Made by a program: the position numbers and the translations under genes. Of a stretch of 64,000 nucleotides of DNA, positions 36,600-46,717 are shown one piece after another (position 1 is the first letter of the stretch; every line of letters starts with the position of its first letter). Below the pieces are notes generated by a model that worked only from the letters and a program-made list of their open reading frames with translations, was not told the origin of the DNA and made no database searches. The stretch spans positions 992,001 through 1,056,000 of the forward strand of contig NZ_JAUSYS010000001.1 of NCBI RefSeq assembly GCF_030817015.1, read 5' to 3'. Source of the DNA: Arthrobacter sp. V1I7. GTDB lineage: Bacteria > Actinomycetota > Actinomycetes > Actinomycetales > Micrococcaceae.

Positions 36600-37232
36600 C
36601 TATTTCTTGACGGCGATCAGGAGGCCATCCCCGGTGGGCAACATGGCCGACTCGAGCCGGTCGTCGTCGCGGATCGACTTGCCCACCTGCCGGAGCACCG
36701 CGGTGGTGGTGTCGCGTGCCGCGGGGTTGGCGACACGGTCCTTGTCCAAAGCATCGTTGACCACCAGCAGCCCGCCGCGTTTGAGCAGCCGGATGGCCTG
36801 TTCGACATAGCCCGGGTAGTTCGGCTTGTCGGCGTCAATGAACACCAGATCGTAGGCGCTGTCGGTCAGCCGGGGAAGGACGTCGCCGGCCCGGCCGGAA
36901 ATCGTCCGGGTCCGGTTGGCCGGGCTGCCGGCCTCCTGGAAGGCTTCCCGGGCCGCCTTGAGGTGCTCGACGTCGACGTCGATGGTGGTCAGAACAGCGT
37001 GCGGGCCCAGGCCACGGAGGATGCACACGCCCGAGACGCCGGCGCCGGTTCCGATCTCCACCGCGGTCTGCGCCTTCGATGCGGCGGCCAGCACCGTCAG
37101 GACCGCACCTACTCCAGGGCCGATGGGCGTGACGCCAAGCTCGAAGGACCGTTCGCGCGCGTGAATCAGGACCTCATCCTCGGCAGGCAGATCTTCTGCA
37201 TAGGACCAGCTCGTGGACTTATCGGCGCTCAT
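36600..37232 (-). CDS. O-methyltransferase (class I, SAM-dependent)
   Basis: A 210-residue O-methyltransferase of the caffeoyl-CoA/catechol type. The SAM-binding motif is AVEIGTGAGVSGVCILRGL, followed by TTIDVDVEHLKAAREAF, and the metal-binding region is YDLVFIDADKPNYPGYVEQA with LLVVNDALDKDRV. The ATG at 37232 begins at a normal family N-terminus (MSADKSTSWSYAEDL); the longer frame to 37337 is not supported. It is divergent from the ECF sigma factor gene across 279 bp, the typical neighbour in related actinobacteria. The substrate is unknown. Confidence 0.9.
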   Translation of the reverse strand: MSADKSTSWSYAEDLPAEDEVLIHARERSFELGVTPIGPGVGAVLTVLAAASKAQTAVEIGTGAGVSGVCILRGLGPHAVLTTIDVDVEHLKAAREAFQEAGSPANRTRTISGRAGDVLPRLTDSAYDLVFIDADKPNYPGYVEQAIRLLKRGGLLVVNDALDKDRVANPAARDTTTAVLRQVGKSIRDDDRLESAMLPTGDGLLIAVKK

Positions 37233-37511
37233 GGATTTTCGCTTTCTGGGCGGCAGGGGGAGTGTCCTGTACAGCCTACTGTGTCGGGCCGGGCACGGCC
37301 GGGAGGCGCCCCCGCCGCGGTCTGGACGACGGCTCAAGCCGCCGTTCCGCCGTGGGCGGAAGAGCGGCCGACGTCAGGAAATTCCCAGCTTGCTTTGAAA
37401 TGATGGATATCCGATCATCCGCGCGATGATCGGCGCCGAATAAAGGGTGCAGGAGCTTGCCCCGGCAAGCACCATCCACGGCGTAAGTGCCATCCAAGAG
37501 GGGAGCGGACG

Positions 37512-38136
37512 ATGTCGATTCCGACGGTAGTCCCTGCAGCTGAAGAGTCCCGGCCTGCCACGGACAGCGAGTGGGTCCGGCCGACGTGGGAGGAAGTGGT
37601 AACCAACCACTCCGCCAAGGTCTACCGGCTCGCGTACCGGCTCACCGGCAACAAGTACGACGCCGAGGACCTCACCCAGGAAGTGTTCGTCCGGGTCTTT
37701 CGTTCGCTCGAAAACTTCAAGCCCGGCACCCTGGACGGGTGGTTGCACCGGATCACCACAAACCTCTTCCTGGACCAGGCCCGCCGCAAGAGCCGCATCC
37801 GCTTCGACGCGCTGGCCGAGGACGCCGAGTCCCGGCTGCCCGGCCGCGAGCCCGGCCCGGAGCAAAGCTTTGAATTCAACAACCTGGATCTCGACGTGCA
37901 GGCCGCCCTCGAGGAGCTGCCCCCGGACTTCCGTGCCGCCGTCGTGCTGTGCGACCTGGAAGGGCTGTCCTACGACGAAGTGGCTGTCGCCCCTGGGCGT
38001 CAAGCTCGGAACGGTGCGCTCCCGGATCCACCGGGGCCGGACCATGCTCCGGGAAAAGCTCGCGCACCGCGACCCGCGCCCGAAGCAGGGCCTCGCACCG
38101 CGGCTCAAGATGCCGCGCATCGCCGGCCTCCTCTGA
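37512..38136 (+). pseudogene. sigE: ECF sigma factor (SigE-like), frameshifted in region 4
   Basis: The first 160 codons encode a normal ECF sigma factor: region 2 [20 protein letters not shown] with EVFVRVF and [19 protein letters not shown], then region 4 starting [20 protein letters not shown] and [13 protein letters not shown]. At the CCCC run 37990-37993 the frame is lost. The expected continuation [19 protein letters not shown] to KMPRIAGLL is present but in the +1 frame, ending at 38136. Removing one C restores a 207-residue sigma factor. As written, the -35 recognition helix is destroyed and the frame runs on into the anti-sigma gene for 617 residues. Consensus error is likely; the intact protein would direct an envelope/heat stress regulon. 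Confidence 0.85.
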
Positions 38137-38144
38137 ACAGGTCG

Positions 38145-39365
38145 ATGAAGCTGCTGAACCGGCTGCTGCGCGGTCTGCCGTGCAGCTACCCCCGGTGGCT
38201 CGGCCGCGGGGGCAGCAACGGCGCGGGGCTGGCCGCCGGGGCCGGCGCCTGGCGCCGGAAACACCGCGAGGCGTGCGATGAATGCCGGCTGCAGGAGCGC
38301 AGGGAGCGGCAGTACCTGGAACGGCTGCGCGGTGCCGCCGTGCCCGTTGCCAGTGACGACCTGACCGCCCGGCTGCTGGCCCGCACGGAGGAACTCGCAC
38401 GCGAAGCCCGGCCCGCTGCAGGCCATCCTGCCGGGGATCCGCCGTCGTTGCAGCCCGGAACAGTTCAAGGCGGCACGCAGCACGGGGGACGTGTGCGCAG
38501 CGGCGTGCCTGCGCGTCCGCGGTTGGCGGCCCTGTCAGCCGGGGGCGCCGCGGCCGCCGTGGCCCTGATGACCGGGTCCGCCTACCTGATGGGCGGAAGC
38601 CCGGCGCCGCTGGCTGGCAGCGAAATCTCGTCCGCTTTCCCGCAGAAGGACTTGCGCGTTTCCGCGGCGGCCGGGACGCCGGAGGCCGGGACGGCCTCCG
38701 GCTGGGGCCTGACCGTCGAACCGGACATCACGCCGGCTGACGCGCTCACCGCCGGGCAGCTCACCGCCCTGCGGGCCCAGGGCTGGAGCTGTCCGGAGCT
38801 ACGCGAGCTGGGCTTCCACCTCGTCTGGGCGCGCGGCGGCGTGGCGGCCGGTGGCGACATGGTGGAACTGCGGCTCACGGACGGACACCACTTCACCACG
38901 GTGCTCGAGCAGCACGCCCGCCAGCCGTCGCAGCATGGCGGATCCGGATTCCAGCACACCCCCGATGCGCCGCCAGTGAACGTGCTCACCGGCCGCTCCG
39001 CGGCCGCGGACGGCTTCACCGCCGCCGCCGGCGCGGAGGGCACGGCCCTGCCGGCAGGCACTTTGCCCGAAACGCTGTCGGGGGAGGGAAGCGGCGGGCT
39101 CTGGATCAATGCGGCGCCGCCTTTCCGTGCCATCTACCAGGATTCCGCCGGCGCCACCCTCACCTATGTCTCGGATCAGCCTGCCGCTGAGGCCGCCGAC
39201 GGCCTGGCCGCCCTGATCCGGGCCTCGGCACCGCAGCGGGCTGAAACGCGGGCGGCCGACGGAACGGCCCCGGACGACGCCACCGGGAGCGAAGTCTTCC
39301 TGGAAGGCATCAGGGCCCGGATCGAGCGGGGCCTCGGCAGGATTCCGGAGCTCCTGGCTCCATGA
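38145..39365 (+). CDS. Anti-sigma factor with zinc-finger-like N-terminus
   Basis: A 406-residue predicted regulator starting 8 bp after the sigma factor's true stop. The anti-sigma zinc motif His-x3-Cys-x2-Cys is visible in [15 protein letters not shown] near residue 40. One hydrophobic membrane helix is [20 protein letters not shown] around residues 126-145, and the remaining 260 residues are predicted extracytoplasmic ([37 protein letters not shown]). The arrangement matches ECF sigma/anti-sigma pairs, and the neighbour is its probable target. By accident of the frameshift upstream its frame is continuous with the sigma factor's. tatB follows 81 bp later. Confidence 0.8.
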
Positions 39366-39446
39366 CGACTGGCCCGGCCGGCAACCGGCGTGTTGTTGGC
39401 GCCGCCGAATCGTCGCCGCTCCGACGGAGAGGGTAATCTTCCTACA

Positions 39447-39845
39447 GTGCTTGGAATCAACGGACCGGAGTTTCTACTTCTGCTGATCATCGGACTTCTC
39501 GTGATCGGTCCCAGCAGGCTGCCCGAATACACCCAGAAACTTGCCAACATCGTCAAGGAAGTCCGGCGGATGGCCTCCGGCGCGCGGGAGCAGATCAAGG
39601 AAGAAGTCGGCATCGACATCGACGATGTCGACTGGAAGAAGTACGATCCGCGGCAGTACGATCCGCGCCGGATCATTCGGGAAGCCCTGCTCGAGGACGA
39701 TACGAAGCCGGTGAGCGCCGGGGCGCCGGCCGCGGCTTCAGCGGTCGCCGGCGCCGCGGTGTCCGCCGCGGAGCACCGTCCGGTGCGCGTGGTCGAGCGA
39801 TTGCCCGAAGGGGAGCCTGCCCCCTTCGACGCAGAGGCCACCTAG
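39447..39845 (+). CDS. tatB: Sec-independent protein translocase subunit TatB
   Basis: A 132-residue TatA/B-family protein. It starts with GTG and one N-terminal membrane helix (FLLLLIIGLLVIGPSRLPEY), with the Gly-Pro hinge, then an amphipathic helix TQKLANIVKEVRRMASGARE and an acidic, Ala-rich tail. The EVGIDIDDVDWKKYDPRQYD segment is typical of actinobacterial TatB. It recognises twin-arginine precursors with TatC, which is not in this window. The stop codon overlaps the stop of the convergent mrp gene. Placement after a SigE-type pair is conserved in actinobacteria. Confidence 0.9.
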   Translation: MLGINGPEFLLLLIIGLLVIGPSRLPEYTQKLANIVKEVRRMASGAREQIKEEVGIDIDDVDWKKYDPRQYDPRRIIREALLEDDTKPVSAGAPAAASAVAGAAVSAAEHRPVRVVERLPEGEPAPFDAEAT

Positions 39846-41008
39846 CGCGGCTGCAGCCCGAGGGACATCCCCTTGAGCCCGCGGGGAACCGCGGCGAGCC
39901 TGCCTGCGATATCCAGCAGGGCCACGGCCGCAGGGGTCTCCGGACGCCCGAGCACCAGCGGAACCCCCGCGTCGCCGCCCTCGCGCAGCAGGATGTCCAG
40001 GGGAATCTGCCCCAGCAGCGGTACATTCGTTCCCACGGTGGCGGACAGCCGTTCGGCGAGCACCGCTCCTCCGCCGCTGCCGAACAGCTCCATCCGGCCG
40101 CCGTCGGGCATCTCCAGGAAGGACATGTTCTCCACCACGCCGGCCACGGACTGGCCGGTCTGGGTGGCGATGGCGCCGGCCCGTTCCGCCACGTCCGCGG
40201 CAGCGGCCTGCGGGGTGGTCACGACGAGGATCTGGGCGCTGGGCAGCAGCTGGGCCACCGAAATCGCGATGTCGCCCGTGCCTGGCGGCAGGTCCAGGAA
40301 CAGCGCGTCGAGGTCACCGAAGTAGACGTCCGTGAGGAACTGCTCGAGGGCGCGATGCAACATCGGCCCCCGCCACGCGACCGGTTGGTTTCCGCTGACG
40401 AACATGCCGATGGAGATGACTTTGACCCCATAGGCAACCGGCGGCAGGATCATGTCATCCACCCGGGTGGGGGACTGGGTGATGCCCATCAGCGCCGGAA
40501 CGGAGAAGCCGTACACATCCGCGTCGACGATTCCGACGCGCAGTCCCCGGGCCGCCAGGGCGCAGGCCAGATTGACCGTCACGGACGATTTCCCGACCCC
40601 GCCCTTGCCGCTCGCCACGGCGTAGACCCTGGTGAGGGAGCCGGGCTGGTTGAAGGGGATCCCGCGCTGGCCGCCCGGCCCGCGCAACTGCTCCTTCAGC
40701 GCGTCGCGCTGCTCCTGCGTCATCACCTTCAGCTCGACCTCGACGCCGGAGACCCCCGGCACCGCGGCCAGCGCCGCTTCGCAGTCGGCGGTGATGGTGC
40801 CGCGCAACGGGCACCCTGCAATGGTCAGGAGCACGGCAACCCGTACCCGGCCGCCGTCGGAAACCTCCACGGAGTCCACCATGCCCAGTTCGGTGATGGG
40901 GCGGCGCAGCTCCGGGTCGATCACGGTGGCGAGGGCCGCGTGCACGGCCCTTTCCAGGGGGAAGCCCCGGGAAGAGTCGAGGGGGGTGCTGCCAGGCGTG
41001 GTGCTCAT
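39842..41008 (-). CDS. mrp: Mrp/NBP35-family iron-sulfur carrier P-loop ATPase
   Basis: A 388-residue protein with an N-terminal DUF59/MIP18-like domain (VHAALATVIDPELRRPITEL) and a C-terminal deviant Walker A ATPase domain: VASGKGGVGKSSVTVNLACA, switch I/II VGIVDADVYGFSVP and LFLDLPPGTGDIAISVAQLL. Members of this family bind and transfer Fe-S clusters; the CxxC pair of other homologues is not obvious here. It is the third gene of a minus-strand set after the MgtE-N/CBS and DUF1003 genes. Confidence 0.93.
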   Translation of the reverse strand: MSTTPGSTPLDSSRGFPLERAVHAALATVIDPELRRPITELGMVDSVEVSDGGRVRVAVLLTIAGCPLRGTITADCEAALAAVPGVSGVEVELKVMTQEQRDALKEQLRGPGGQRGIPFNQPGSLTRVYAVASGKGGVGKSSVTVNLACALAARGLRVGIVDADVYGFSVPALMGITQSPTRVDDMILPPVAYGVKVISIGMFVSGNQPVAWRGPMLHRALEQFLTDVYFGDLDALFLDLPPGTGDIAISVAQLLPSAQILVVTTPQAAAADVAERAGAIATQTGQSVAGVVENMSFLEMPDGGRMELFGSGGGAVLAERLSATVGTNVPLLGQIPLDILLREGGDAGVPLVLGRPETPAAVALLDIAGRLAAVPRGLKGMSLGLQPR

Positions 41009-45823: not shown

Positions 45824-46670
45824 GTGAGGATCGACCTGCATACGCACTCGAATGTTTCCGACGGCACCCAGGCCCCGGCCGACGTGATGGCGTCAGCCGC
45901 CGCGGCCGGGATCGACGTGGTCGCCCTGACGGATCACGACTCCACCGACGGCTGGGCCGAGGCCGCCCGGGCCGCCCCGGAATGCGGGGTCGCGCTCGTT
46001 CCCGGAATGGAAATTTCCTGCCGGACGTCCGAGGGCATCAGCGTCCACCTGCTCAGCTATCTGCACGACCCGGAGCATCCCGGGCTGTTGGAGGAAATCA
46101 CCAAGGCCAAGGATGCGCGCTACACGAGGGCCGAGCGGATGGTCAGCCTGCTCGCGGAGGACTACCCGCTGACCTGGGACGACGTCATCCACCACGTGGC
46201 GCCCGGGGCCACCCTGGGCCGGCCGCACATCGCCGACGCGCTCGTCGCCGCCGGGGTCGTCGGGGACAGGTCCGAGGCCTTCAGCTCGATCCTCACCTCA
46301 CGCTCGCGCTATTACGTGCAGCATTACGCGCCCGATCCCGCACTCGCCGTCGAGCTGGTCCGTGCCGCCGGGGGCGTCCCGGTGTTCGCCCATCCGGTGG
46401 CATCCGCCCGCGGACGCATCGTGGGGGACCGGACCTACCACGAGATGATTGACGCCGGCCTGGCCGGGCTGGAGATCCACCACCGGGATAAACCCCGAAG
46501 AGGGCCGGGAGTTCCTGCGCAGGCTTGCGCAAACGCACGGCCTGCTCGTGACGGGGTCCTCGGATTATCATGGCGCCGGGAAGCCGAACCTGCTGGGAGA
46601 GAACGTGACCTCGCCGGAGGTCTTCGCCCGGATCGAGGAACTGGGCACCGGGTCCTCCGTGGTGCGCTGA
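45824..46670 (+). pseudogene. PHP-domain phosphoesterase, frameshifted near the C-terminus
   Basis: A PHP-superfamily phosphoesterase of about 281 residues when corrected. The N-terminal metal sites RIDLHTHSNVSDGTQAP, VALTDHDSTDGW and GMEISCRTSEG are intact, as is GGVPVFAHPVASARG. At AAA 46490-46492 the frame is lost after GLEIHHRDK. The natural continuation NPEEGREFLRRLAQTHGLLV with the metal-binding SSDYHGAGKPNLLGEN follows in the next frame and ends at 46670. Deleting one A rejoins them. As written the protein would lack the final Asp/His motif. Family members include 3',5'-nucleoside bisphosphate phosphatases. Probably a consensus error rather than a true pseudogene. Confidence 0.85.
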
Positions 46671-46717
46671 CGGAGCGGCCTGACCTCCAGCCGGGGTGAG
46701 GGGCCTGGCGGGACGCG

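Follow-up and report, generated by a model that had tools for sequence, protein, structure and literature searches.

A single surplus C interrupts sigE, the gene for a SigE-type extracytoplasmic function (ECF) sigma factor, in the assembly of Arthrobacter sp. V1I7, and places its first part in one open reading frame (ORF) with the adjoining anti-sigma gene. The locus was analysed within a window of 64,000 nucleotides (contig NZ_JAUSYS010000001.1, positions 992,001 to 1,056,000), and coordinates below are those of the window unless another source is named. We regard it as very likely that the extra C is a residual single-base assembly error, made in sequencing or in the consensus, within an ordinary pair of sigE and anti-sigma genes. 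If so, the real DNA would lack this base and the pair would work normally. An earlier reading of the DNA letters (the original prediction) had likewise held one extra C, probably an error, responsible; comparison with relatives and further +1 breaks in the same assembly support that view, although they do not prove the error itself.

Division of sigE at the C run

The run of four Cs (Table 1) shifts the sigE frame, as had been seen at the outset, and the family models follow the same division. Sigma70_r2 (PF04542) is complete in the first piece (residues 30-95, profile positions 2-70 of 71, 67.5 bits). In the frame that opens sigE, region 4 is incomplete: Sigma70_r4_2 (residues 128-159, profile positions 3-34 of 54) stops at position 34, which agrees with the description of this frame as an ECF sigma factor up to YDEVAVA and lost thereafter. 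The next frame holds the remainder of region 4 together with the C-terminus, also as described: Sigma70_r4_2 positions 36-54 are found at 37993-38133, in a short match of 19.4 bits that is under the cut-off of 25.7 (E 0.00086). The SigE model NF007229 is likewise split: the first piece matches positions 33-177, the second 180-211, and no single frame reaches its cut-off of 265 bits (617-residue frame 252.1, first piece 255.4, second piece 43.0). That the models divide precisely at the C run goes beyond chance.

Comparison with relatives

The original prediction had proposed a comparison with sigE of related strains, and it has now been carried out. A DNA search over 206 same-genus genomes, our own included, matched 203. 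Out of the 202 other matching genomes we examined 69 taken from the head of the ranked list, 29 as loci returned by the search and 40 as fetched stretches. The extra base is missing in all 29 relatives aligned at the site, and sigE is a single intact, separate frame in 68 of the 69 examined. The exception (locus L009, genome G163) also lacks the extra base; its frame breaks upstream of the site, and its assembly consists of one contig, 79% complete with 6% contamination.

These counts bear on the possibility of a programmed or phase-variable frameshift at the C run, by which the gene would yield both the sigma factor and a fusion. The shift does fall on a short C run with an open frame after it, but the run is not conserved and the 68 intact relatives need no shift. 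Four Cs are also short for phase variation. With the extra base not conserved, programmed frameshifting and phase variation were both rejected, and we hold this explanation to be very improbable.

The substitution pattern speaks to the age of the change. From residue 14 to the site, sigE differs from that of the closest relative, G199 (93%), by 22 silent and 0 replacement changes, with 3 replaced codons before residue 14; the second piece shows 8 silent changes and 1 replaced codon. Judged by these differences, selection has preserved both pieces up to the very recent past, or does so even now. An old pseudogene was rejected because the changes in both pieces are nearly all silent.

For the same reason, a real mutation would have to be very young. 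A genuine extra C of very recent origin, which would leave the isolate without functional SigE, is in our view unlikely. The sequence as given, with four Cs and an open 617-codon frame, agrees with a real base, as does the lack of another SigE in the genome, where the next-best NF007229 match has 120.5 bits against the cut-off of 265; a second SigE acting as a substitute was ruled out on that score. Stress-response genes can be lost in culture, which also counts for a real mutation. Besides the nearly exclusively silent change in both pieces, it counts against a real base that nine like +1 breaks, this one included, would fall within 800 kb, and that the genome's sole ndk and sole leuD would be among the genes hit. 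The product of a real base, which would keep region 2, lose the second half of region 4 and end up either broken down or held at the membrane by its anti-sigma part, is as unlikely as the real base. In that case recognition of the -35 element would most likely be lost with the cut in region 4. Less probable again is the stronger form of this scenario, in which a membrane-bound hybrid takes the place of free SigE, with region 2 and one half of region 4 linked to the anti-sigma factor, giving a recent null or dominant-negative SigE state.

Other +1 breaks in the assembly

Assembly quality was assessed by comparing 800 kb of this genome (5.03 Mb, two contigs) with 800 kb of G199 and sorting the candidates by hand. 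Nine mid-gene breaks were judged real here, all of them net +1 (two-sided sign test, p 0.004), against no clear one in G199. The genes affected encode nucleoside-diphosphate kinase, peptide deformylase, LeuD, an NADPH-dehydrogenase-like flavoenzyme, an RND-family permease, a SufS-family cysteine desulfurase, a PHP-domain protein, a PhoR/PnpS-like histidine kinase and SigE. Two lie outside the window on G000:C1, ndk (1614350-1614758) and leuD (1415844-1416384), and each is split into two frames by a +1 shift. The former is the sole ndk locus in the genome, and no further place in the genome reaches the family cut-off for leuD. Since the only ndk and the only leuD are split in this way, the shifts point to assembly errors. 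Two additional peptide deformylase genes are intact in the genome. The PHP-domain gene lies in the window (45824-46699, forward strand) and is net +1 relative to G199, with the break near 46489.

These breaks were drawn from two sets of candidates. The G199 ORFs gave 13 candidates; 5 of them (86, 292, 345, 376, 406) were dropped as breaks in 5' extensions or badly aligned ends, which left 8. Another 12 came from the ORFs of this genome: sigE (173) was kept, 2 (294, 380) duplicated breaks already counted, and 9 (13, 117, 188, 202, 287, 293, 407, 417, 561) were dropped as 5' extensions or gene boundaries. ORFs without a good match numbered 110/607 and 99/604 in the two sets, with 17 and 25 matched only partly.

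Isolated one-base gaps served as a looser control. In DNA that is coding in both genomes 25 are extra here versus 8 extra in G199, whereas noncoding DNA is balanced (54 versus 56; Fisher p 0.009 for coding against noncoding). The coding calls came from a simple ORF caller that covered about 82% of the sequence. This control backs an assembly error only in part, and the nine breaks carry more weight.

Excerpts of PMC12007338 document indels that break genes in bacterial assemblies made from long reads, and the present breaks resemble them in being one-base shifts that disrupt conserved genes and disappear on comparison with relatives.

Several observations weigh against an error. The same excerpts describe nanopore uncertainty in homopolymer length as tending toward deletions, whereas all nine breaks here are insertions. 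Gaps in DNA that is coding in only one of the two genomes lean the opposite way (15 here, 23 in G199), and when the two coding classes are pooled (40:31 versus 54:56 noncoding) the difference is gone (p 0.36). One large gene (index 208), from an earlier 400-kb pass, is +1 in G199 relative to this genome and can be assigned to neither; it fell below the stricter identity filter of the 800-kb comparison. The genome is scored 100% complete, so most marker genes must be unbroken. Finally, no second assembly of this species came to light; the sigma match that ranked best has 94% identity. In our judgement a residual error remains by far the best account of the extra C, and the assembly needs polishing before gene losses are inferred from it.

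The fused frame

The ORF of 617 codons runs uninterrupted across both genes, and the anti-sigma ATG (38145) shares its frame with the sigE start, as the original prediction had noted. If the extra C is an error, the locus would be the ordinary sigE and anti-sigma pair of a soil actinobacterium of the Arthrobacter type, to which the assembly adds one base. That base would move the frame within region 4 of the sigma factor, and the fused frame would arise because a +1 shift exposes the very frame in which the anti-sigma gene starts and GC-rich DNA offers few stops. In the living cell sigE would most likely give a normal ECF sigma factor of ~207 residues, which the zinc-motif anti-sigma factor, a separate protein from the adjacent gene, would keep inactive, and the fused frame would be present in the record only.

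Such a frame is easily produced in this gene pair. In 28 of the 68 intact relatives the frame exposed by a +1 shift extends >60 nucleotides beyond the sigE stop, although in 16 of those 28 it is still open where the fetched stretch ends, and whether it is the anti-sigma frame was not checked in each. Since the +1 frame so often passes the sigE stop, the length of the fused frame is nothing special and calls for no particular cause. Similar frames occur in metagenome catalogues: two metagenome proteins (P0126, P0136) run from sigma into anti-sigma sequence and two others (P0081, P0235) change frame within the sigma factor, all at other break points and each as a single-member cluster. The pair is thus prone to fusion artefacts, and a single wrong base can mimic a regulator fused to its own inhibitor.

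The original prediction had expected an automatic caller to record a novel fusion. The protein catalogue searched does not bear this out: for a contig of equal length (4,870,128) it lists a separate anti-sigma factor of 406 residues (P0121), and no 617-residue entry occurs among the best 120 of the 218 matches. Two more distant SigE-like proteins, P0236 and P0240, have region 4 intact and carry further in-frame sequence, including a zinc-finger domain (PF13490) in P0240; they are candidate fusions or frame errors.

True fusions of this kind are known. Excerpts of PMC8999054 describe them in Actinobacteria, where sigma factors of groups ECF48, ECF52 and ECF53 carry fused zinc-finger anti-sigma parts and membrane helices. 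The present frame resembles them in holding sigma and zinc-motif anti-sigma sequence together, but differs in having no intact region 4 and in being common to 0/69 relatives. Its region 4 is destroyed, and ~51 codons comprising the normal sigE C-terminus and the spacer are read in another frame. An evolved fusion is therefore the least probable of the explanations considered, and we regard it as highly improbable.

Gene layout and the anti-sigma factor

The features of the locus and its neighbours are collected in Table 1. By analogy with the protein families matched and with the M. tuberculosis pair, the likeliest function is that of a normal sigma factor of the SigE type kept in check by an anti-sigma factor with a zinc motif. 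In M. tuberculosis, according to excerpts of PMC10027907, a SigE-type gene is followed by the anti-sigma gene rseA and, further on, by tatB; here too a SigE-type gene and an anti-sigma gene precede a TatA/B/E-type gene. The two loci differ in that htrA separates rseA from tatB in the M. tuberculosis operon, whereas here the TatA/B/E-type gene follows the anti-sigma gene directly, with no htrA in between (39366-39390).

Table 1. Features of the sigE locus and its neighbours (window coordinates).
Feature	Position	Strand	Basis
sigE, first piece: region 2, linker, first half of region 4	37512..37989	+	Pfam and NCBIfam matches
CCCC run with the extra base	37990..37993	+	sequence; one base fewer in 29/29 aligned relatives
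sigE, second piece in the next frame: remaining region 4, C-terminus, TGA	37993..38136	+	Sigma70_r4_2 36-54, NF007229 180-211
Anti-sigma gene, 406 residues, HxxxCxxC motif	38145..39365	+	P0121; conserved motif; homologue names
Apparent fused frame, 617 codons	37512..39365	+	uninterrupted ORF
Anti-sigma ectodomain, predicted RseB-C-like fold	38703..39362	+	prediction
Neighbour, O-methyltransferase (Methyltransf_3)	36600..37337	-	
Neighbour, TatA/B/E-type gene	39390..39845	+	PF02416, 21.2 bits against a cut-off of 21
Neighbour, Mrp-type iron-sulfur P-loop NTPase	39842..41008	-	

A Pfam search with the anti-sigma protein of the window matched no family, and the profile match to the anti-sigma-W factor RsiW is weak (E 0.96). 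The HxxxCxxC residues H40, C44 and C47 are invariant in 26/26 aligned anti-sigma sequences, and among the homologues seen P0149, P0169 and also P0191 are named anti-sigma factor by their source. The zinc motif is shared with M. tuberculosis RseA, a ZAS protein in the excerpts of PMC8999054. RseA is described there as soluble, whereas the present anti-sigma factor has a hydrophobic stretch, read from its sequence, and a long further domain. A literature search on RseB-like domains in anti-sigma factors or in Arthrobacter found nothing on the topic. The whole-length model of the anti-sigma protein is poor (predicted local distance difference test score, pLDDT, 52.1) and its matches were used only as a lead; for the ectodomain, a fold like that of the RseB C-terminal domain is predicted.
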